Assembly: GCF_030127105.1 (NCBI RefSeq)
Contig: NZ_CP126161.1
Location: 1,860,001 to 1,924,000, forward strand
Reading direction: 5' to 3'
Length of the DNA stretch: 64,000 nt
Source: Haloarcula pelagica
GTDB lineage: Archaea; Halobacteriota; Halobacteria; Halobacteriales; Haloarculaceae
The notes beneath the pieces were generated by a model that saw only the letters and a list, made by a program, of their open reading frames with translations, was not told the DNA's origin and made no database searches. A program made the translations under genes and the position numbers. Below, piece after piece: positions 4,746 through 14,344 of the stretch (position 1 is the first letter of the stretch; each line of letters begins with the position of its first letter).

Positions 4746-4931
4746 TCACCGCTGCTTGTAGAGCCACAGCACCGCCAGGGCGACGACGGCGAGTCCGATC
4801 AACGGCTGGAGCGGCCCGAGGAGCCAGCCCAGCAGGCCCAGGATCTCTTCGACGACCGCCAGCCCGACCCAGACGACCACGAGGACGAGCAGGAGCTGCA
4901 ACAGCGTGTCGATGTCGGGGAGTGTGTCCAT
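4746..4931 (-). CDS. small two-helix membrane protein, haloarchaeal hypothetical
   Basis: A 61-residue protein starting MDTLPDIDTLL. It is almost entirely hydrophobic, with two predicted membrane segments (about residues 9-40 and 44-58) and a short basic end (YKQR). I cannot assign a function. The frame stays open further upstream, but the added residues are basic and unlike the rest, so the ATG at 4931 is preferred. Confidence 0.7.
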   Translation of the reverse strand: MDTLPDIDTLLQLLLVLVVVWVGLAVVEEILGLLGWLLGPLQPLIGLAVVALAVLWLYKQR

Positions 4932-5027
4932 AGCTGGTGGTTCCGGAGCCGGGACAAACCTCTTGTGGCCGTCGCGGCGCCGGCCCGAGGCGTGCCAACG
5001 CGCCACGCACGGCGAGTGGACACGGAA

Positions 5028-5042
5028 GCTATTAGTACCAGA
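5028..5042 (+). promoter_or_regulatory. promoter of the argG leader, with possible operator
   Basis: The AT-rich segment GCTATTAGTACCAG lies 25-35 bases before the ATG at 5063, the standard place for a haloarchaeal TATA box driving a leaderless transcript. Its right part, TAGTACCAG, differs at one base from the arm TAGTATCAG of the palindrome at 8103-8118, so a shared arginine-responsive operator is possible. Confidence 0.55.
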
Positions 5043-5062
5043 CTTACAGTACCGTTACGTAC

Positions 5063-5158
5063 ATGACTCGGACCGCTCCCGCCGGGACGCTCGCAGGCGT
5101 CAGCGAGGGGTCCGACTCCTTCTCGCAGCGACGCCGACGACGACGGGGCCGTCTCTAG
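5063..5158 (+). CDS. putative arginine-rich leader peptide of argG
   Basis: A 31-codon ORF that starts with ATG at the position expected for a leaderless transcript and ends with TAG at 5156-5158, 99 bases before argG. Near its end are six consecutive arginine codons (residues 23-28: CGA CGC CGA CGA CGA CGG), then Gly-Arg-Leu-stop. A run of codons for the pathway product just before a biosynthetic gene is the hallmark of ribosome-mediated attenuation. A 7-bp inverted repeat follows at 5212-5243. I know of no described archaeal case, so the role is inference. It might instead be a chance GC-rich simple repeat. Confidence 0.5.
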   Translation: MTRTAPAGTLAGVSEGSDSFSQRRRRRRGRL

Positions 5159-5211
5159 GCCCACTACTACTCCCACTCTCACGGTTCGTCTCGTCGCTGA
5201 CTCCCGCCGTC

Positions 5212-5243
5212 GACTGTCCGGCCGGTACCCGAAATCGACAGTC
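5212..5243 (+). promoter_or_regulatory. inverted repeat between leader ORF and argG
   Basis: GACTGTC at 5212-5218 and GACAGTC at 5237-5243 are perfect inverted repeats around an 18-base loop. The downstream arm ends 14 bases before the argG ATG, so the hairpin could hide the start or act as an attenuator. No T-tract follows it. Confidence 0.45.
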
Positions 5244-5257
5244 ACACCACCAAACCA

Positions 5258-6541
5258 ATGTCCGAAGGAAACGGAACCGTCGCGCTCGCCTTCTCCGGTG
5301 GGCTCGACACGACAGTCTGTGTATCGCTGCTGAAAGAGGAGTACGGCTACGACGAGGTCATCGGCGTCACCGTCGACGTGGGCCAGCCCGACTACGAGTT
5401 CGAGGAGGCCGAAGAGACCGCCGAGGCACTGGGCGTCGAGCAGTACGTCGTCGACGCGAAAGCGGAGTTCGCCGACCTCTGTTTCCAGGCCGTGAAGGCA
5501 AACGCCGACTACCAGGGGTACCCGCTCGGGACGGCGCTGGCCCGCCCGGTCATCGCGAAGGCCATCCTCTCGGTCGCCGAGGAGGAGGGCTGTGACGGTA
5601 TCGCTCACGGCTGTACCGGCAAGGGCAACGACCAACTGCGCTTCGAGGCCATCTGGCGCGACTCGGACCTGGAGGTCATCGCGCCGGTCCGCGAACTCGG
5701 TCTGACCCGCGAGTGGGAAAACGAGTACGCCCAGGAGAAGGGGCTGCCCGTCGAGGGCGGCGACGGCGGCCGCTACTCCATCGACACGAACCTCTGGAGC
5801 CGTTCGATCGAGGGGTCGGAACTGGAAGACCCGTCGACGATCCCGGCCGACGACATCTACAAGTGGACCGAGAACCCCTCGGGGAAGGAGTCGGAACTCG
5901 TCGAGGTCACCTTCGAAGAGGGGGTCCCGGTCGCCGTCGACGGCGAGGACCTGGGCTCGGTCGAACTGATCGAACAGCTCAACGCACAGGCCGGCGCCCA
6001 CGGCATCGGCCGCACGGACATGATGGAGGACCGCATGCTCGGGCTCAAGGTCCGCGAGAACTACGAACACCCCGCGGCGACGGTGTTGTTGACGGCCCAC
6101 GAGGCTCTGGAAGGGCTCGTCCTCACCCAGGAGGAACGCCAGTTCAAGGCCCAGGTCGACCAGGAGTGGTCCCAGAAGGCCTACGAGGGGCTGGTCGACG
6201 CGCCCCTGACCGGTGCGCTGGAGGCGTTCGTCGAGGACACTAACGCCCGGGTCACCGGCACCGTGACGGTGAAACTCGAAGGCGGGCACTGCCGCCCGGT
6301 CTCCCGCGAATCGGAGTACGCCGTCTACAGCGAGTCCGCCGCGTCCTTCGACGAGGAGGACATCACCGGCGGCATCACCCAGCAGGACGCCACGGGCGTC
6401 GCGAAGTACCACGGGTTCCAGTCGCGTCTCGCCAACCGGATCCTCGACGACGCGAAGAAGGGGGCGACGGTGGCCGACGGGGGGAGCGAGGACCCGACGC
6501 ACGCGGACGGTGACGCAGCCAGCGACACCTCGGAGGAGTAA
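5258..6541 (+). CDS. argG: argininosuccinate synthase
   Basis: It joins citrulline and aspartate with ATP to form argininosuccinate, the seventh step of arginine synthesis. 427 residues, slightly longer than bacterial enzymes because of an acidic C-terminal tail. The ATP-pyrophosphatase loop AFSGGLDTT is at residues 11-19, and the conserved block CTGKGNDQLRFE lies near residue 120. The gene is followed three bases later by argH, so they form one operon. The start codon has no Shine-Dalgarno sequence and is preceded by a leader region with an Arg-rich ORF. Confidence 0.96.
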   Translation: MSEGNGTVALAFSGGLDTTVCVSLLKEEYGYDEVIGVTVDVGQPDYEFEEAEETAEALGVEQYVVDAKAEFADLCFQAVKANADYQGYPLGTALARPVIAKAILSVAEEEGCDGIAHGCTGKGNDQLRFEAIWRDSDLEVIAPVRELGLTREWENEYAQEKGLPVEGGDGGRYSIDTNLWSRSIEGSELEDPSTIPADDIYKWTENPSGKESELVEVTFEEGVPVAVDGEDLGSVELIEQLNAQAGAHGIGRTDMMEDRMLGLKVRENYEHPAATVLLTAHEALEGLVLTQEERQFKAQVDQEWSQKAYEGLVDAPLTGALEAFVEDTNARVTGTVTVKLEGGHCRPVSRESEYAVYSESAASFDEEDITGGITQQDATGVAKYHGFQSRLANRILDDAKKGATVADGGSEDPTHADGDAASDTSEE

Positions 6542-6544
6542 GCC

Positions 6545-8066
6545 ATGGGCGACGGAGAGAACGACGACGGGGAGGTCTCGGAGAGCGCGCACGGCGACGC
6601 CGCAAGCGAGGCCGGCGAGAGCGTCGTCCGCCGTGACCGCTTCGCCGGCGGCCCCGCCCGGTCGTTCCTCTCCTCGCTCGCCGACGACGAGCGCATCTTC
6701 GCGGCGGACCTGGCGGTCGACCGCGCCCACGTCGTGATGCTCGCGGAACAGGGGATCGTCGACCGGGAGACGGCCGGCGACATCCTCGCGGCACTGGCAG
6801 CGATCGAAACGACGGGACACGCCGCCCTCCCGGACGGCGAGGACGTTCACGAGGCCATCGAGAGCGCGGTCATCGACCGGGTCGGCGCCGACGGCGGGAA
6901 GATGCACACCGCCCGCTCGCGCAACGACGAGGTGGCCGCCTGCATCCGCTATCGCCTGCGCGAGGACCTGCTCGAACTGCTCTCGGCAGTGATCGGCGCG
7001 CGCGAACAGCTACTCGCCGTCGCCCGCGACCACGACGAGACGGTGATGCCGGGCTACACGCATCTCCAGCCCGCACAGCCGACGACGGTCGCCCACTGGG
7101 TGCTGTCCTACGAACAGGCGCTCCAGCGGGACACCGGACGGCTGCTCGACGCGTACGCACGCGTGAACGAGAACCCGCTCGGGGCCGCCGCCTTCGCCGG
7201 GACGCCGTTCGACATCGACCGCGACCGGACGGCGGACCTGCTCGGGTTCGAGGGGTGCGTCGAGAACTCGATGGACGCGGCGTCGGCGCGGGACTTCCTC
7301 GTCGAGACGACGAGCGCGGTCGCGGGGCTTGCGACGACGCTCTCACAGCTCGCGGAGGACGTGGTCGTGCTGGCGAGCAAGGGCCACGTCGACCTCGACG
7401 ACGACTACGCCTCGACGAGTTCGATCATGCCCCAGAAGAAGAACCCGGACACGCTGGAACTGGTCCGCGGGCGTACCGGCGACGCCGTCGCCGGACTGAA
7501 CGGCCTGCTGACCAACCTCAAGGGCCAGCCCCGTGCGTACAACCGCGACCTCCAGCGGGCCGGTCGCCACGCCTGGGACGCCATCGACAGCGTCACCGAG
7601 AGCGTCGAGGTTGCCGCCGGTGCGGTCGCCACGGCCGAGTGGCCCGCCGACGCGCTCGAAGCCGCCGCGACCGACGGCTTCTCGACGGCGACCGGCGTCG
7701 CGGACCTGCTGGCGATGGCGGGGGTGCCGTTCCGGACCGCCCACGAGGTCGTCGCCGAGGTCGCGGCCGACCTCGATCCCGACGAGGACGCCCCCGACTA
7801 CGACGCCATCGCGGCCGTCGCGGCGGACGTACTCGACGCGCCGCTCTCGGAGTACGTCGACCGCGCGGCCGTCGAGGCGGCGCTGGACCCGAGAGAGCGT
7901 CGCGATGCGGGACTCCCGTGGCGGCCCGGCCCCGTCGGCGGTCGCCGACCAGCGCTCGACCGCCCAGGAGGCCCTGGCCGTCGACACGGAGGCCCTCGAC
8001 GATCGCCGGCGGGGACTCGAACAGGCCGCCGATCGCCTGGCGACGGAGGTCGACCGCTATGTCTGA
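6545..8066 (+). pseudogene. argH: argininosuccinate lyase, frameshifted near the C-terminus
   Basis: It would cleave argininosuccinate to arginine and fumarate. The first 449 residues are intact, with GYTHLQPAQPTT near residue 170 and the fumarase/lyase signature SSIMPQKKNPD near residue 293. At 7891-7896 the sequence GAGAGA breaks the frame. The conserved end (LDP, then ESVAMRDSRGGPAP and a final VDRYV) continues in the next frame and stops at 8066. One extra GA unit restores a full-length protein of about 507 residues. As read, the frame runs on to 8152 with an unrelated Arg/Gly/Pro-rich tail. Either a sequencing indel or a recent mutation. No second argH is present in the window. Confidence 0.85.
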
Positions 8067-8102
8067 GCGACGATCCCCGTCCGGGGACAGTATACCACAA
8101 TT

Positions 8103-8118
8103 CTGATACTAGTATCAG
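8103..8118. promoter_or_regulatory. perfect 16-bp palindrome, candidate operator
   Basis: CTGATACTAGTATCAG reads the same on both strands. It lies between argH and lysW in the arginine cluster, about 110 bp before lysW. One arm resembles the argG promoter region (TAGTACCAG at 5034-5042). Confidence 0.5.
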
Positions 8119-8126
8119 TCACGCCG

Positions 8127-8163
8127 CGTACTACCGATCGAAACACCGTTAGCGGGTAGTACG
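8127..8163 (+). terminator. inverted repeat, possible terminator of argGH
   Basis: CGTACTACC at 8127-8135 and GGTAGTACG at 8155-8163 form a perfect 9-bp stem with a 19-base loop. The AT-rich stretch ATCACTATTTTCTG follows. The position, after argH and before the lysW promoter, fits a terminator or a processing hairpin. Confidence 0.45.
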
Positions 8164-8189
8164 ATCACTATTTTCTGCTGACAAGTTCG

Positions 8190-8202
8190 AAGTGCTTAAG
8201 TG
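8190..8202 (+). promoter_or_regulatory. lysW operon promoter
   Basis: The element GTGCTTAAGTGGG has the shape of a strong haloarchaeal TATA box. It is centred about 32 bases before the lysW ATG, so transcription would start within a few bases of the start codon. Confidence 0.6.
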
Positions 8203-8227
8203 GGTCGCTGTCCGAGAGTGAGCTACA

Positions 8228-8392
8228 ATGGCAGACTGCATCGAGTGCGGGGCGGAGGTCTCCCTGCACGAGAACCTCGAAGTCGGAGAGATCGTCGACT
8301 GTGCGACCTGCGGTGCCGAGCTCGAAGTGATCGGAACGGACCCGGTCGAACTCGACAGCGCACCCGAACTCGAAGAGGACTGGGGCGAGTGA
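8228..8392 (+). CDS. lysW: amino-group carrier protein LysW/ArgW
   Basis: A 54-residue acidic carrier. Its C-terminal Glu, in the invariant ending EDWGE, is joined through its side chain to the amino group of glutamate (or aminoadipate), which protects the substrate during synthesis. Two CxxC pairs (C4-C7 and C25-C28) form a zinc knuckle. The ORF is small and lies directly upstream of lysX, as in other haloarchaea. Given the argBCDEF neighbours, its role here is arginine, not lysine, synthesis. Confidence 0.93.
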   Translation: MADCIECGAEVSLHENLEVGEIVDCATCGAELEVIGTDPVELDSAPELEEDWGE

Positions 8393-8465
8393 TGACCGCC
8401 GCGGCGTGGCCCAGTGTCCCGTTCGCGACGCCGGCCGACGCCGCCCGCGAACACAGCGAGGACAC

Positions 8466-9389
8466 ATGATGAAGGTCGGACTCCTCTACTCGCGTATCCG
8501 CCGGGACGAGAAGCTCCTGCTGTCGGAACTGCGCGAGCGCGACCACGAGATCGAGAAGATCGACGTTCGCAAGCAGCGGTTCAACATCTCGGAGGCGCCC
8601 GCGGCGTTCGAGGACGTGGACATCGTCGTCGATCGCTGTCTGGCGACCTCACGCAGCGTCTACGCGACGAAGTTCGTCGAGGCCTACGACGTGCCGGTCG
8701 TCAACGGTCCCGGCGTCGCGGAAGTCTGTGCGGACAAGGTGAAAAACAGCCTCGCGCTCGAACGGGCGGGCGTTCCGACGCCGGACACCGACGTGGCCTT
8801 CACCAAAGACGCCGCGCTGGAGTCGATCGAGGACTTCGGCTATCCCTGCGTCCTCAAGCCCGTCGTGGGCTCGTGGGGCCGCCTGATGGCCAAGATCGAC
8901 TCCCGGTCGGCCGCCGAGGCGATCCTCGAACACAAGGAGACGCTTGGCCACTACGAGCACAAGATCTTCTACGTCCAGGAGTTCGTCGACAAACCCGGCC
9001 GCGACATCCGGGTGCTGGCGACCGACGGCGAACCGGTCGCCGCGATGGTCCGCTCGTCGGACCACTGGCTCACCAACGCCGCGAAAGGCGCCGAGACCGA
9101 CACCTTCGAACTGGACGACCGGGCGCTCGAACTCGTCGAGAAGGCCAGCGACGCGGTCGGCGGCGGTCTGCTCGGCGTCGACCTGATGGAAGTCGGGGTG
9201 TCACAAAGCGACACCCAGGACGCGAGCGGCGACGAGCCGCGAGCGCGCGAGCCCGACGACTACACCGTCCACGAGGTCAACCACACCGTCGAGTTCAAGG
9301 CGCTGAACGAGGTCAGCGATGTCGACGTGCCTTCGAAGGTAGTCGACTGGCTGGAAGCGAAAGCCCAGGCCTCGGAGGTGACGGCATGA
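8466..9389 (+). CDS. lysX: glutamate-LysW ligase (ATP-grasp)
   Basis: It attaches glutamate to the C-terminal Glu of LysW with ATP. 307 residues with an ATP-grasp core (VLKPVVGSWGRLMAKI near residues 133-148, KIFYVQEFVDKPGRDIRVL near 166-184, HEVNHTVEFK near 271). The two adjacent ATGs at 8466 and 8469 are preceded by GCGAGGAC. A run of about 21 Asp/Ser/Arg-rich residues sits between GVDLMEVG and YTVHEVNH and is not expected in the family. Its DNA carries a perfect 7-bp hairpin. The stop overlaps the argC start (ATGA). Confidence 0.93.
   Translation: MMKVGLLYSRIRRDEKLLLSELRERDHEIEKIDVRKQRFNISEAPAAFEDVDIVVDRCLATSRSVYATKFVEAYDVPVVNGPGVAEVCADKVKNSLALERAGVPTPDTDVAFTKDAALESIEDFGYPCVLKPVVGSWGRLMAKIDSRSAAEAILEHKETLGHYEHKIFYVQEFVDKPGRDIRVLATDGEPVAAMVRSSDHWLTNAAKGAETDTFELDDRALELVEKASDAVGGGLLGVDLMEVGVSQSDTQDASGDEPRAREPDDYTVHEVNHTVEFKALNEVSDVDVPSKVVDWLEAKAQASEVTA
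9194..9261. repeat. palindromic insertion inside lysX
   Basis: GGGTGTC (9196-9202) and GACACCC (9210-9216) form a hairpin around ACAAAGC, followed by a second, weaker dyad GCGGC/GCCGC near 9226-9240. The stretch interrupts a conserved region of LysX in frame. It looks like a short palindromic intergenic-type repeat that has entered a gene. Confidence 0.45.
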
Positions 9390-10423
9390 GCTACACCGCG
9401 AGCGTCGTCGGCGGGTCGGGCTTTACCGGCGGGGAACTGCTCCGCCTGCTCGACGGCCACCCCGAGTTCGAACTGGCCCAGGCGACCAGTCGCTCGAAGG
9501 AGAACAAGACCATCGGCCACCAGCATCCGAACCTCCGGCATACGGATCTGCGTTTCTCCTCGCCGGAGGACCTAGAGTCGGTCGACGTGCTCTTCGCCGC
9601 GACGCCACACGGCGTCTCGATGGAGCAGATCGACCGGTTCCGGGACGCCGCCGACACGGTCGTCGATCTCTCGGCGGACTTCCGCCTCGACACGGAGGCC
9701 CAGTACGACGAGTGGTACGACGGCCACACGCGGCCGGACCTGCTTGCCGACAGCGAGTACGCGCTGCCGGAACTCAACCGCGAGAACCTCGCGGGCGCGG
9801 ACCTCATCGCCTCCGGGGGCTGTAACGCCACGGCGACGATCCTGGGACTGCTCCCGCTGTTCGAGGCCGACGTACTCGGCGGTGACGAGCAGATCGTCGT
9901 CGACGTGAAGGTCGGTTCCAGCGAGGGCGGGGCCGGCGGCGGCGAGGCGTCGTCCCACCCCGAGCGCAGCGGCGTCGTCCGTCCGTACGCGCCGACAGGC
10001 CACCGCCACGAGGCCGAGATCCAGCAGTTCCTCGGCGTCGATGTCTCCTTTACCGTCCACGCGGTGGAGATGACCCGCGGCGCGAGCGCGACCTGCCACG
10101 TCTTCCCCGACGGCCCGGTCTCGAAGGGCGATCTCTGGAGCGCCTACCGTGGCAGCTACGAGGACGAACCGTTCGTCGAACTCGTCGCCGGCGGTGGCGG
10201 CGTCTACCGCTACCCCGAACCGAAGGCCGTCGCGGGGACGAACAAAGCGGAGGTCGGCTTCGAACTCGACCCCGGCAACAAGCGTCTGGTCGTCTTCTCG
10301 GCCATCGACAACATGATGAAGGGGTCGGCCGGCCAGGCCGTCCACGCGGCCAACGTCGCGCTGGGTATCGAGGAGACGGCGGGCCTGGAGTTCCAGGGGC
10401 TCCACCCCGTCGGCGCACCATAA
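9386..10423 (+). CDS. argC: LysW-gamma-glutamyl-phosphate reductase
   Basis: NADPH-dependent reduction of LysW-bound glutamyl phosphate to the semialdehyde. 345 residues. The dinucleotide-binding N-terminus is VVGGSGFTGGELLRLL and the catalytic Cys is C146 in SGGCNATA. The family block PYAPTGHRHEAEI is near residue 208. Start ATG at 9386 overlaps the lysX stop. The family is shared with N-acetyl-glutamyl-phosphate reductase, but the LysW/LysX neighbours show the carrier-bound version. Confidence 0.94.
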   Translation: MSYTASVVGGSGFTGGELLRLLDGHPEFELAQATSRSKENKTIGHQHPNLRHTDLRFSSPEDLESVDVLFAATPHGVSMEQIDRFRDAADTVVDLSADFRLDTEAQYDEWYDGHTRPDLLADSEYALPELNRENLAGADLIASGGCNATATILGLLPLFEADVLGGDEQIVVDVKVGSSEGGAGGGEASSHPERSGVVRPYAPTGHRHEAEIQQFLGVDVSFTVHAVEMTRGASATCHVFPDGPVSKGDLWSAYRGSYEDEPFVELVAGGGGVYRYPEPKAVAGTNKAEVGFELDPGNKRLVVFSAIDNMMKGSAGQAVHAANVALGIEETAGLEFQGLHPVGAP

Positions 10424-10438
10424 CACGGAGGCTTTTTC

Positions 10439-11281
10439 ATGACAGTAGTTATCAAAGTCGGCGGCGCTCGGGCGGTCGATCCCGCCGGCGCGCTCGCCGA
10501 TGTCGCCACACTTGTTTCGAACGGAGAGCAGGTCGTCGTCGTCCACGGCGGCTCCACGAAAGTCGACGAGACGCTCGACCGACTCGGGATCGACCCCGAG
10601 TACGTCGAGACGCCCGGCGGCGTCGTCGGGCGATTCACCGACGAGGCCACGATGGAGGTCTTCGAGATGGCCTTCGGCCACCTCAACACCCAACTCGTCG
10701 CCGGCCTCCAGAGCGAGGGCGTCGACGCGGTCGGGCTGAACGGCGTCGACGGGAAACTCCTCTATGGCCCCCGCAAGTCCGCGGTCCGGGTCGTCGAGGA
10801 CGGGAAGAAGAAGATCAGACGGGGCGACCACTCCGGGACGATCAAACAAGTCAACGGCGACCTGCTCGAATCGCTGCTTTCGGACGGTTACACGCCGGTC
10901 GCCGCGCCGCCGATGGCAGGCGACGATGATGGCGAAATCATCCCGGTCAACACCGACGCCGACCGCTCGGCGGCCGCGATCGCCGCCGAACTCGAGGCGA
11001 CCCTGGTCCTGCTCACGGATGTCGAGGGCGTCTACGAGGACCCCGACGATCCCGCGACGCTGATCGAGTCCGTCGAGACAGGCGAGGACTGGACGGCTCT
11101 GGAAGAGGCCGCAGAAGGGTTCATGGGCCGGAAGGTCATGGCCGCCGAGGAGGCGCTCGACGGCGGCGCACCCGAAGTCGTGGTCGCGGACGCCAACGCC
11201 GACGACCCGATCACCTCTGCCCTCGAAGGTAGCGGAACGCATCTCCACGCGAGCGCACTCACGACGGAGGAACACACATGA
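10439..11281 (+). CDS. argB: LysW-glutamate kinase (amino-acid kinase family)
   Basis: Phosphorylates carrier-bound glutamate. 280 residues with the kinase N-terminus VIKVGGARAV, the VVVHGGSTKVDE loop near residue 32, and VNTDADRSAAAIA near residue 170. A clear Shine-Dalgarno GGAGG at 10426-10430 precedes the ATG, unlike the leaderless genes nearby, which fits an internal operon position. The 4-base overlap with argD (ATGA) indicates coupled translation. Confidence 0.93.
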   Translation: MTVVIKVGGARAVDPAGALADVATLVSNGEQVVVVHGGSTKVDETLDRLGIDPEYVETPGGVVGRFTDEATMEVFEMAFGHLNTQLVAGLQSEGVDAVGLNGVDGKLLYGPRKSAVRVVEDGKKKIRRGDHSGTIKQVNGDLLESLLSDGYTPVAAPPMAGDDDGEIIPVNTDADRSAAAIAAELEATLVLLTDVEGVYEDPDDPATLIESVETGEDWTALEEAAEGFMGRKVMAAEEALDGGAPEVVVADANADDPITSALEGSGTHLHASALTTEEHT

Positions 11282-12405
11282 GCGGATTCGTCTTCAACGA
11301 GAAACCGATCCAGATCGAACGCGGCGACGGCGCGTACGTCTACGACGACGACGGCACAGAGTATCTCGACATGGGGGCCTCGTACGCCTGTGTCCCGCTG
11401 GGACACGGCCACGAGGCGGTCCAGGACGCCGTCACCGAGCAGTTCGAGAAGCTGACCTACGTCCAGGCGTCGTACCCCAACGCCCAGCGGACGGCGCTGT
11501 ACGAACTGCTCGCCGACACGGCACCCGACCCCATCGACAAGACCTGGCTCTGTAACTCCGGGACCGAGGCCAACGAGGCCGCGCTGAAGTTCGCCCGGTC
11601 GGCCACCGGCGAGTCGAAGGTCGTCGCCACCATGCAGGGCTTTCACGGCCGGACGATGGGATCGCTGGCGACGACCTGGAAGGACAAGTACAAGAAACCG
11701 TACGAGCCCCTGATGGGTGACGTGGAGTTCGTCCCCTACGACGACGCGGAAGCACTCGACGAGGCCGTCGACGAGGAGACGGCGGCCTTCATCGTCGAAC
11801 CCGTCCAGGGCGAGGGCGGCATCAACCCCGCCTCGACCGAGTATCTGGAAGCGGCCCGCGAGATCACCGAGGAGGCGGGCGCGGCGCTGATCTTCGACGA
11901 GGTCCAGACCGGGATGGGGCGGACCGGCGCGCTGTGGAACTCCCAGCGGGCCGCCGTCACGCCCGACATGATCACCTCGGCGAAGGGACTTGGCAACGGC
12001 TTCCCGGTCGGCGCGACGCTGTGTCGGGACTGGATCGCCCAGGACTACGGCTCCCACGCCTCGACGTTCTCGGGCGGCCCGGTCATCTCCGCGGCCGCCG
12101 GGGCGACCGTCTCGACCATCGTCGAGGACTCGGTGCCGGGCAACGCCGCCGTGATGGGCGAGTACCTCCAGACCGAACTGGAAGCGGCCATCGGCGACGA
12201 GGTGCGTGACATCCGCGGCGAGGGGCTGATGATCGGCGTCGAGGTCGGCCGTGGGGCCAACAAGGCCCTGAAGCAACTGGCACTGCACCACCAGGTGCTC
12301 GCGCTGCCGGCCGGTCGAACCGTCGTGCGCCTGCTCCCGCCGCTGACCATCGACGAGGCCCACGCCGACGCCGTCGTCGAGGCGATGGCGGAGGTGGTCG
12401 GATGA
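11278..12405 (+). CDS. argD: LysW-ornithine/acetylornithine aminotransferase (class III, PLP)
   Basis: Transfers an amino group to the LysW-bound semialdehyde. 375 residues. The PLP-binding Lys is K236 in SAKGLGNGFPVGA. The NSGTEANEAALKFAR block near residue 87 and FDEVQTGMGRTG near residue 207 identify the acetylornithine-type subgroup. GGAGG lies just upstream of the start. The gene overlaps argB and argE by four bases each. Confidence 0.94.
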   Translation: MSGFVFNEKPIQIERGDGAYVYDDDGTEYLDMGASYACVPLGHGHEAVQDAVTEQFEKLTYVQASYPNAQRTALYELLADTAPDPIDKTWLCNSGTEANEAALKFARSATGESKVVATMQGFHGRTMGSLATTWKDKYKKPYEPLMGDVEFVPYDDAEALDEAVDEETAAFIVEPVQGEGGINPASTEYLEAAREITEEAGAALIFDEVQTGMGRTGALWNSQRAAVTPDMITSAKGLGNGFPVGATLCRDWIAQDYGSHASTFSGGPVISAAAGATVSTIVEDSVPGNAAVMGEYLQTELEAAIGDEVRDIRGEGLMIGVEVGRGANKALKQLALHHQVLALPAGRTVVRLLPPLTIDEAHADAVVEAMAEVVG

Positions 12406-13457
12406 GCGAAGCCGCCGCCCGCGAGGTCGACACCGAGGCCCGCGAGTTGCTGGAGGCGGTCGTCCGCACCCCCTCCGTCTCACGGAACGAGCGCGAGGCC
12501 GCCCAGCGCCTGGTCGAGTTCTTCGAGGCCCACGACCGCGAGGTCTGGATCGACGAGGTCGGCAACGTCCGCGCGCCGGCCGACGACGGCGTCCTGCTGA
12601 CCTCCCACATCGACACCGTGCCCGGCGACATCCCGGTCCGGGTCGAGGAGTCGAGCGAGGGCGACGTACTGTGGGGCCGAGGCAGCGTCGACGCGAAGGG
12701 GCCGCTCTGTGCGATGGCCGTCACCGCGGTCCGCACTGGGGCCTCCTTCGTCGGCGTCGTCATGGAGGAAGTCGACTCCACCGGCGGCCGCCACCTCGTC
12801 GAGGACCGCGAGTCCGCGCCGGACGCCGTCATCAACGGCGAGCCCTCCGGCTGGGAGGGGATCACGCTGGGCTACCGGGGGCTGCTCGGTGGTGCCTACG
12901 TCGCCACCAGCGAATCGGGCCACTCCTCGCGGCCCGAGAACAACGCCATCCAGGACGCGATGGACTGGTGGGCCGCGGTCGAGGACGAGTTCGCCAAAGA
13001 CGAGTGGCACCCCGTCTTCGAGCGGGTCACCTGCAAACCCGTCGACTTCGACGGGGGGATCTCCGACGACGGCCTCTCGGTCGAGGCGACGATGCAGGTC
13101 CAGTTGCGCGTCCCGCCCGAATACGCGACCGACGAGATCCGCGAGATCGCCGACGGCTATCTCCAGAACGGCACCGTCAACTGGGACGACTGGGTCGAGC
13201 CGGTGATGGAGAGTCCCCGGACCAGCGTCGCTCGCGCGTTCCGGGCCGCGATCCGGAGCCACGGCGGCGAACCCCACCTCCTGCGCAAGACCGGCACCAG
13301 CGACATGAACATCTACGCTCAGGCCTGGGACTGCCCGATGGTCACCTACGGCCCGGGCGACTCGGACCTGGATCACGCACCGAACGAACACCTCCACCTC
13401 ACGGAGTACGACCGCTCGGTCGCCGTCCTCGAAGACGTGACCGAACGCCTGCTGTAA
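12402..13457 (+). CDS. argE: LysW-ornithine hydrolase (M20 metallopeptidase)
   Basis: Releases ornithine from the LysW carrier. 351 residues of the M20 deacetylase family. Metal-ligand blocks are TSHIDTVPG near residue 67, GRGSVDAKGPL near 92 and MEEVDSTGGRHL near 121. GTSDMNIYAQAWDCP near residue 300 is the C-terminal His/Asp region. It overlaps argD (ATGA) and is followed two bases later by argF. It could act on either the ornithine or the lysine adduct, as in LysK. The context favours ornithine. Confidence 0.92.
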   Translation: MSEAAAREVDTEARELLEAVVRTPSVSRNEREAAQRLVEFFEAHDREVWIDEVGNVRAPADDGVLLTSHIDTVPGDIPVRVEESSEGDVLWGRGSVDAKGPLCAMAVTAVRTGASFVGVVMEEVDSTGGRHLVEDRESAPDAVINGEPSGWEGITLGYRGLLGGAYVATSESGHSSRPENNAIQDAMDWWAAVEDEFAKDEWHPVFERVTCKPVDFDGGISDDGLSVEATMQVQLRVPPEYATDEIREIADGYLQNGTVNWDDWVEPVMESPRTSVARAFRAAIRSHGGEPHLLRKTGTSDMNIYAQAWDCPMVTYGPGDSDLDHAPNEHLHLTEYDRSVAVLEDVTERLL

Positions 13458-13459
13458 CC

Positions 13460-14344
13460 ATGCCCACGCACCTGCTCGATGTCGACGACCTGACGACCGA
13501 GGAACTGACTGCGGTGCTCGACCGCGCCGCCGAGATCAAAGGCGACGGGGCCGACGACCCCCTCCACCAGCAGACGCTGGGGATGATCTTCGAGAAGCCG
13601 TCGACCCGGACACGGGTCTCCTTCGAGACCGGGATGACACAACTGGGCGGCCACGCCGTCTTCCTCGGCCCCGACGACATCCACCTGGGCCACGGCGAAC
13701 CGGTCAAGGACACCTCTCGTGCGCTCTCCCGGTACGTCGACTTCGTGATGGCCCGCGTCTTCGACCACGCGGACGTGGTGGAACTGGCCGAGTACGCCGA
13801 CGTGCCGGTGATCAACGCCCTGACCGACGACGCCCACCCCTGCCAGACGCTGGCGGACCTGCTGACGATCCGCGAGCAGTTCGGTGACTTCGACGTGTCG
13901 GTCGCCTGGGTCGGCGACGGCAACAACGTCTGCCAGTCGTTCGTCCTGGGCGCGGCGATGGCGGGGATCGACCTCACCGTCGCCACGCCCGAGGGCTACG
14001 AGGTCGACGACGACGTGCTGGAACGGGCAGCCGGCTTCGACAACGCGCCCGAGACGACCCACGATCCGCAGGCGGCCGTCGCCGACGCCGACCTCGTCTA
14101 CACCGATGTCTTCGTCAGCATGGGCCAGGAGGACCGCCGCGAGGAGAAACTCGCCGACTTCGACGGGTTCCAGGTCACGACGGACCTGCTCGGCGACCGC
14201 CCGCTCATGCACTGCCTGCCCGCCCACCGCGGCGAGGAGGTCACCGACGAGGTCGTCGAGTCGGACAACGCCATCGTGTGGGACCAGGCCGAGAACCGGC
14301 TCCACGCGCAGAACGGGCTGCTGGTGTGGCTGGCCGAACAGTAG
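13460..14344 (+). CDS. argF: ornithine carbamoyltransferase
   Basis: Makes citrulline from ornithine and carbamoyl phosphate. 294 residues. The carbamoyl-phosphate motif STRTRVSFE is near residue 47, HPCQTLADLLTI near residue 129 and the ornithine loop HCLPAHRGEEVTDEV near residue 251. The open frame extends far upstream inside argE, but ATG 13460 is two bases after the argE stop and gives the family N-terminus (HLLDVDDLT). It is the last gene of the arginine operon. Confidence 0.95.
   Translation: MPTHLLDVDDLTTEELTAVLDRAAEIKGDGADDPLHQQTLGMIFEKPSTRTRVSFETGMTQLGGHAVFLGPDDIHLGHGEPVKDTSRALSRYVDFVMARVFDHADVVELAEYADVPVINALTDDAHPCQTLADLLTIREQFGDFDVSVAWVGDGNNVCQSFVLGAAMAGIDLTVATPEGYEVDDDVLERAAGFDNAPETTHDPQAAVADADLVYTDVFVSMGQEDRREEKLADFDGFQVTTDLLGDRPLMHCLPAHRGEEVTDEVVESDNAIVWDQAENRLHAQNGLLVWLAEQ

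Follow-up and report, generated by a model that had tools for sequence, protein, structure and literature searches.

Does the short arginine-rich reading frame in front of the argG gene of Haloarcula pelagica control the arginine genes that follow it, or is it a by-product of GC-rich DNA? The locus was analysed within a window of 64,000 nucleotides (contig NZ_CP126161.1, positions 1,860,001 to 1,924,000, forward strand), in which the whole cluster argGHWXCBDEF stands downstream of the leader ORF (Table 1). The genes behind argG were named from recognisable sequence and from the known haloarchaeal arginine gene set (PMC10433800). A sequence-only reading had proposed amino-acid attenuation at this locus, and the conservation of the ORF, of its Arg run and of the promoter spacing, as detailed below, argues for that proposal. 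We consider it likely, from comparison of sequences, that the arg operon mRNA begins with a ribosome-mediated attenuator that senses charged tRNA-Arg.

Table 1. Coordinates of the argG leader elements and of the arginine cluster in the window
Feature	Positions	Strand	Details or basis
Leader promoter, TATA-like box CTATTAGTA	5029-5037	+	AT-rich hexamer spacing across loci
Leader ORF	5063-5158	+	ATG, 31 codons, stop TAG 5156-5158; predicted leaderless
P1, 5' hairpin inside the leader ORF	5065-5118	+	Core arms 5068-5074 / 5109-5115
Control codons CGA CGC CGA CGA CGA CGG	5129-5146	+	Codons 23-28; six Arg codons
P2 hairpin, GGGCC-GTCTCTA-GGCCC	5146-5162	+	Arms 5146-5150 / 5158-5162; overlaps the last control codon; TAG within
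G-free, pyrimidine-rich tract, 20 nt after P2	5163-5182	+	Candidate pause/termination zone
Candidate pairing partner of the Arg run (5126-5140); the pairing would enclose P2 in a larger structure	5186-5199	+	Minimum-free-energy fold
P3, perfect 7-bp stem before argG	5212-5243	+	GACTGTC 5212-5218 / GACAGTC 5237-5243
argG (argininosuccinate synthase)	5258-6541	+	First gene of the cluster behind the leader
argH, argW, argX, argC, argB, argD, argE, argF	6545-14344	+	Rest of the arginine cluster
argW	8228-8392	+	
argB	10439-11281	+	
argD	11278-12405	+	
argE	12402-13457	+	

The elements on which the earlier proposal was built were recovered in the window: the 31-codon ORF carries six consecutive Arg codons near its stop, with an additional Arg codon (CGT) at 5150-5152, and an AT-rich promoter core lies 32 nt 5' of the leader ATG, a suitable distance for an ATG at the predicted 5' end of the transcript. 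The perfect 7-bp stem ahead of argG (P3) is real but is not the key hairpin, which is the much better conserved P2; the sequence-only reading had missed P2, the 5' hairpin P1 within the ORF and the G-free tract. By eye, P3-like stems recur in Haloarculaceae leaders and in none of the other families seen, and P3 appears to be family-restricted. Beside the leader promoter, a divergent ORF (window 4746-5006, reverse strand) encodes a small, very hydrophobic protein (MDTLPDIDTLLQLLLVLVVVWVGLAVVEEILGLLGWLLGPLQPLIGLAVVALAVLWLYKQR).

For the comparative analysis, argG loci were gathered from named genomes and, for the same family, from 143 out of 146 genomes; the loci read from these were those of the best 30. 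A motif composed, in this order, of in-frame Arg codons, the GC hairpin P2 and a mostly G-free tract was found in 95 of 96 distinct 330-nt argG upstream regions, ranging from Haloarcula to Haloferax, Halorubrum, Halorussus, Natrinema, Halobacterium and the deep lineage of Actinarchaeum; the single miss, Halonotius L061, has by eye a degenerate version (RRSGRYPV with CGGG...CCCG). The same architecture was present in 20/20 additional genomes taken across the order, one of which (L183) has a GC content of 41% and the leader MNWCSWQNMRSPTKDIVVMSMSHDVVSQTRRRRRAV; GGGCCGTTTAGGCCC then AGATATATTTTTAC. The ORF and the Arg run, expected before argG in relatives of H. pelagica, are conserved through the class Halobacteria. 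Chance or a GC artefact as the cause of the motif was ruled out by this class-wide conservation together with the 41%-GC genome. The architecture was absent from 17 argG upstream regions of other families of the phylum, outside the class, and from G155, a distant genome listed under the same order. Second argG copies in two Haloarcula relatives (G016:C2:799259-800515 and G008:C12:84790-86049, about 71% identical) were without any leader.

An AT-rich promoter box begins 29-34 nt 5' of the leader start in about 90 of the 95 loci, and this constant spacing is that expected for a leaderless transcript. From the box-to-ATG distance, transcription is expected to begin at or just before the leader ATG and hence upstream of position 5158, where the sequence-only reading had set the limit for its proposal. 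The start codon (92 ATG, 1 GTG) opens a frame of 22-57 codons that ends inside P2 or just after it in 93/95 loci; the same holds for L089. The leaders of L104, L106 and L110 contain insertions of about 48 nt, as measured against a relative, that keep the frame open. These inserts are short, palindromic and TCCGACGAGCAGTCGG-like, and are perhaps a small repeated element; L038 and L040 also have long leaders. For quantitative comparisons, 38 divergent representatives were drawn from the loci with such a leader ORF.

Both hairpins vary in sequence while keeping their pairing. P1 spans about codon 2 to codon 18, with family-specific, co-varying arms, and P2 occurs with the stem types GGGCC, GGCCC, GGGGC, GGGGTC and CGGGC, each with a matching 3' arm. 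P2 covariation was judged on a loop-of-4 subset and by arm-swap tests, since the loop length varies. Pair counts for P2 on a 23-sequence subset gave 100% pairing with one covarying pair, and the cognate arms of P1 and of P2 paired better than between-species swaps (0/5000 permutations as good, among representatives that share ancestry). The whole-leader fold alone was not significant (z -1.40). Immediately 3' of P2, the G content is 1.6% over the first 10 nt, 9% over the next 10 and about 16-31% beyond, and 32/38 representatives have a G-free run of 16-21 nt after P2. The longest T-run behind P2 in the representatives is 1-4 nt, and a search there for terminator-like sites found none; only the low-GC genome L183 has TTTTT behind P2. 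Simple intrinsic termination at P2 is not supported, because no U-run follows the hairpin in most genomes.

From the conserved parts, with their order, spacing, codon bias, open frame and RNA pairing, we infer sensing of tRNA-Arg charging, ribosome stalling and premature termination by P2 and the tract, as follows. The transcript would start at or within a few nucleotides of the leader ATG, and a ribosome would load on the 5' end and trail the RNA polymerase. P1 may slow the polymerase and let the ribosome catch up; in bacterial trp leaders, the 1:2 pause hairpin slows the polymerase to this effect. The ribosome would then reach the rare CGA codons that immediately precede P2. When charged tRNA-Arg is abundant, it would continue to the stop codon inside P2 and be released, P2 would fold and most transcripts would end or stall in the G-free tract. 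With tRNA-Arg scarce, chiefly the CGA reader, the leading edge of the stalled ribosome would lie over the 5' arm of P2, and the polymerase, with P2 blocked, would continue into argGHWXCBDEF.

The geometry of the leader is consistent with such a role: the hairpin is placed so that a stalled ribosome would alter its folding. A universal Arg codon (codon -2, counted back from P2) starts 4-5 nt 5' of the P2 5' arm in 38/38 representatives. The leading edge of a ribosome lies about 13 nt past the A-site start, and with this value a ribosome at codon -2 would cover the whole P2 5' arm, at -4 about half of it and at -5 almost none. The frequency of Arg falls from 100% at codon -2 (38/38) to 76% at -3, 58% at -4, 53% at -5 and 26% at -6. 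Because the predicted masking and the Arg conservation fall off alike, the stalled ribosome is proposed to prevent the formation of P2.

While a ribosome sits at the stop codon, it occupies P2. The hairpin could therefore form only once the ribosome has been released, and the polymerase would have to pause or a factor-dependent exit would be needed. In Haloferax, transcription ends at T-stretches and at certain hairpins; in vivo, a hairpin and a T-stretch gave 59% and 95% termination, respectively (PMC7237163). According to a published proposal, coupled ribosomes keep the factor aCPSF1/FttA away from RNA (PMC8116511). No clean antiterminator pairing was found in the leader. We tentatively suggest, as a possibility that we hold to be somewhat short of probable, that attenuation throughout Halobacteria is antiterminator-free: a ribosome loaded on the leaderless transcript and stalled at CGA would physically mask the hairpin in which its own stop codon lies; once it is released, the exposed G-free tract would let aCPSF1/FttA end transcription. 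Several Haloferacaceae, Halorubrum and related lineages (including L036, L042, L043, L050, L056, L059, L067, L073 and L077) have an AATTTAA/AATTTAT box 32-36 nt before argG. Placed there, downstream of the attenuator, the box may be a second promoter from which argG is transcribed leaderless; the leader could then not be the sole control, and the attenuator would act on top of a basal supply.

Stalling at the same Arg codons could instead act on argG translation or on mRNA stability, if P2 or pairing of the Arg run with downstream sequence changed ribosome loading or RNase access. The missing U-run terminator and the third stem near argG in Haloarculaceae would suit such an output, as would the ability of the Arg run to pair with the segment at 5186-5199. 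Complementarity between the Arg run and the downstream sequence exceeded that of shuffles (mean z -1.36), and the modelled pairing that encloses P2 is suggestive only. P2 ends 76-194 nt before the argG start, too distant for direct masking, the region downstream of P2 is poorly conserved between families, and the G-free tract right after P2 would be left unexplained; we regard this output as unlikely and retain premature termination as the preferred one.

The choice of Arg codons bears on what the ribosome would sense. CGA accounts for 105/173 Arg codons (61%) in the last 12 leader positions, versus 7.4% in the acidic ORFs of the window (binomial P about 1e-72, with codons treated as independent, which those of related sequences are not), and for 75/106 at positions -10 to -3, which are clear of P2. 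CGC is the main Arg codon of the acidic window ORFs, yet it makes up only 8/173 in the leader tails. To judge from codon usage, the bias towards rare CGA near P2 is typical of control codons that a single tRNA decodes. The N-terminal leader codons changed at all three positions alike (35/32/37 substitutions at codon positions 1/2/3 in 19 independent close pairs), leader codon changes were 55 nonsynonymous versus 24 synonymous, and no peptide conservation was found beyond the Arg tail. The conserved features are the reading frame, the hairpins and the Arg codons close to P2, CGA foremost, with no visible selection on the peptide. A comparison at the level of codons rather than amino acids, as envisaged in the sequence-only reading, thus came out on the side of the codons, and this favours attenuation by tRNA charging. 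Nascent-peptide arrest, in which free arginine would stall the ribosome on the Arg-rich tail as in the fungal arginine attenuator peptide, could draw on the similar C-terminal residues of many leaders; the P2 stem fixes the residues behind the Arg run, the N-terminal two thirds are not conserved as protein, and arrest by a peptide gives no reason for rare CGA over common CGC. We judge this explanation very unlikely.

The ATG frame ends in P2 in 38/38 representatives, versus 9.3 expected from shuffles, and in 0/38 for frames +1 and +2; the leader reading frame is under selection. An untranslated structured RNA (a riboswitch or a protein-binding site) with an incidental ORF would be in keeping with P1 and P2 as conserved RNA hairpins, and is made highly improbable by this frame, by the fixed distance of the start codon from the TATA box, by the in-frame insertions and by Rfam, including RF03001, which gave only a sub-threshold snoRNA match in the window and no match in L183. 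Least probable of all is that an independent small gene or small RNA, with a promoter and a 3' hairpin of its own, happens to lie ahead of argG: a second promoter just before argG, which several lineages may have, would fit it, but the element is single-copy and always at argG (its covariance model gave one strong match in the genome of the window, at argG, with E 8e-5, the next best being 0.27), its peptide is not conserved, and most Haloarculaceae have no visible second promoter, so that argG would then have none.

The leaders of other amino-acid genes of haloarchaea were searched for runs of cognate codons. The hisG, trpC, trpE, pheA and thrC leaders contained no comparable run, those of thrC and pheA having a few low-grade, unconserved ORFs, and leuA carries the known leuA-Halobacteria RNA (RF03001), a different leader; attenuation as a general haloarchaeal device was rejected on these grounds. 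Upstream of leuA (L155, L157-L161; L159:1358-1410), a conserved short ORF (MSEHPTEDRGSRREAAGREIRPAV and variants) lies across RF03001, so that this RNA motif may also code for a leader peptide, one without cognate codons. Before a second leuA-like gene (L163-L165; in the genome of the window, G000:C1:217617-218747), a short ORF, MSNNEGTSGSPADRVLPGHTGFHV, lies about 34 nt after a TATAAG box and overlaps, in another frame, the conserved N-terminal coding sequence of that gene (RRIEFFQGTLDSTSEITDA); the gene has no ATG nearby, and a non-canonical start or a frameshift is possible. A near-invariant, palindrome-containing, operator-like sequence, TGTACACTTCTGTACGTTAGTGTTCAGTA, stands directly before the leaderless trpC start (L145, L146, L148-L152).

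In agreement with the sequence-only reading, which knew of no such leader, no archaeal arginine attenuator or leader peptide was described in the open literature searched, haloarchaeal transcriptome papers included, and Rfam holds no family for the argG leader element. The element bears on whether archaea couple translation to transcription tightly enough for leader-peptide attenuation. With its control codons and hairpin defined and its position uniform, it offers one test case, expected by homology in the genetically tractable Haloferax and Haloarcula. If confirmed, it would be, to judge by our searches, the first attenuator of this kind in archaea, and would provide a handle on the sensing of tRNA charging and on factor-dependent termination in this domain of life.

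Among known systems, the short ORFs in the long 5'-UTRs of Haloferax volcanii are similar in being located in haloarchaeal leaders; they were found by transcript-start mapping, the listed peptides all have a low isoelectric point, no attenuation was proposed for them, and argG (HVO_0049) is absent from the list (PMC4983044, Table 2). RF03001 resembles the argG leader in being a cis-regulatory element of Halobacteria that precedes an amino-acid operon and overlaps a short conserved ORF, but differs in sequence and structure and has no cognate-codon run. The fungal arginine attenuator peptide (the arg-2 / CPA1 uORF) is likewise encoded by an upstream ORF, as that of argG would be, in control of an arginine gene; it is a conserved peptide that stalls at high arginine, whereas in the argG leader the codons are conserved and stalling would be expected at low arginine. 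A further comparison is with the bacterial ribosome-mediated transcription attenuators of the trp, his, leu and ilv leader peptides. The argG element would work like a bacterial leader-peptide attenuator; it is not classed as a plain member, because a U-run terminator was tested for and not found. It shares with them a short leader ORF, a run of codons for the end product, rare synonymous codons, an early hairpin and a second hairpin beside the control codons, all before a biosynthetic operon. Unlike them, it is archaeal and apparently leaderless, it has no clear antiterminator, its stop codon lies inside the second hairpin, and its Arg codons run right up to that hairpin, where P2 would be blocked by the stalled ribosome itself.
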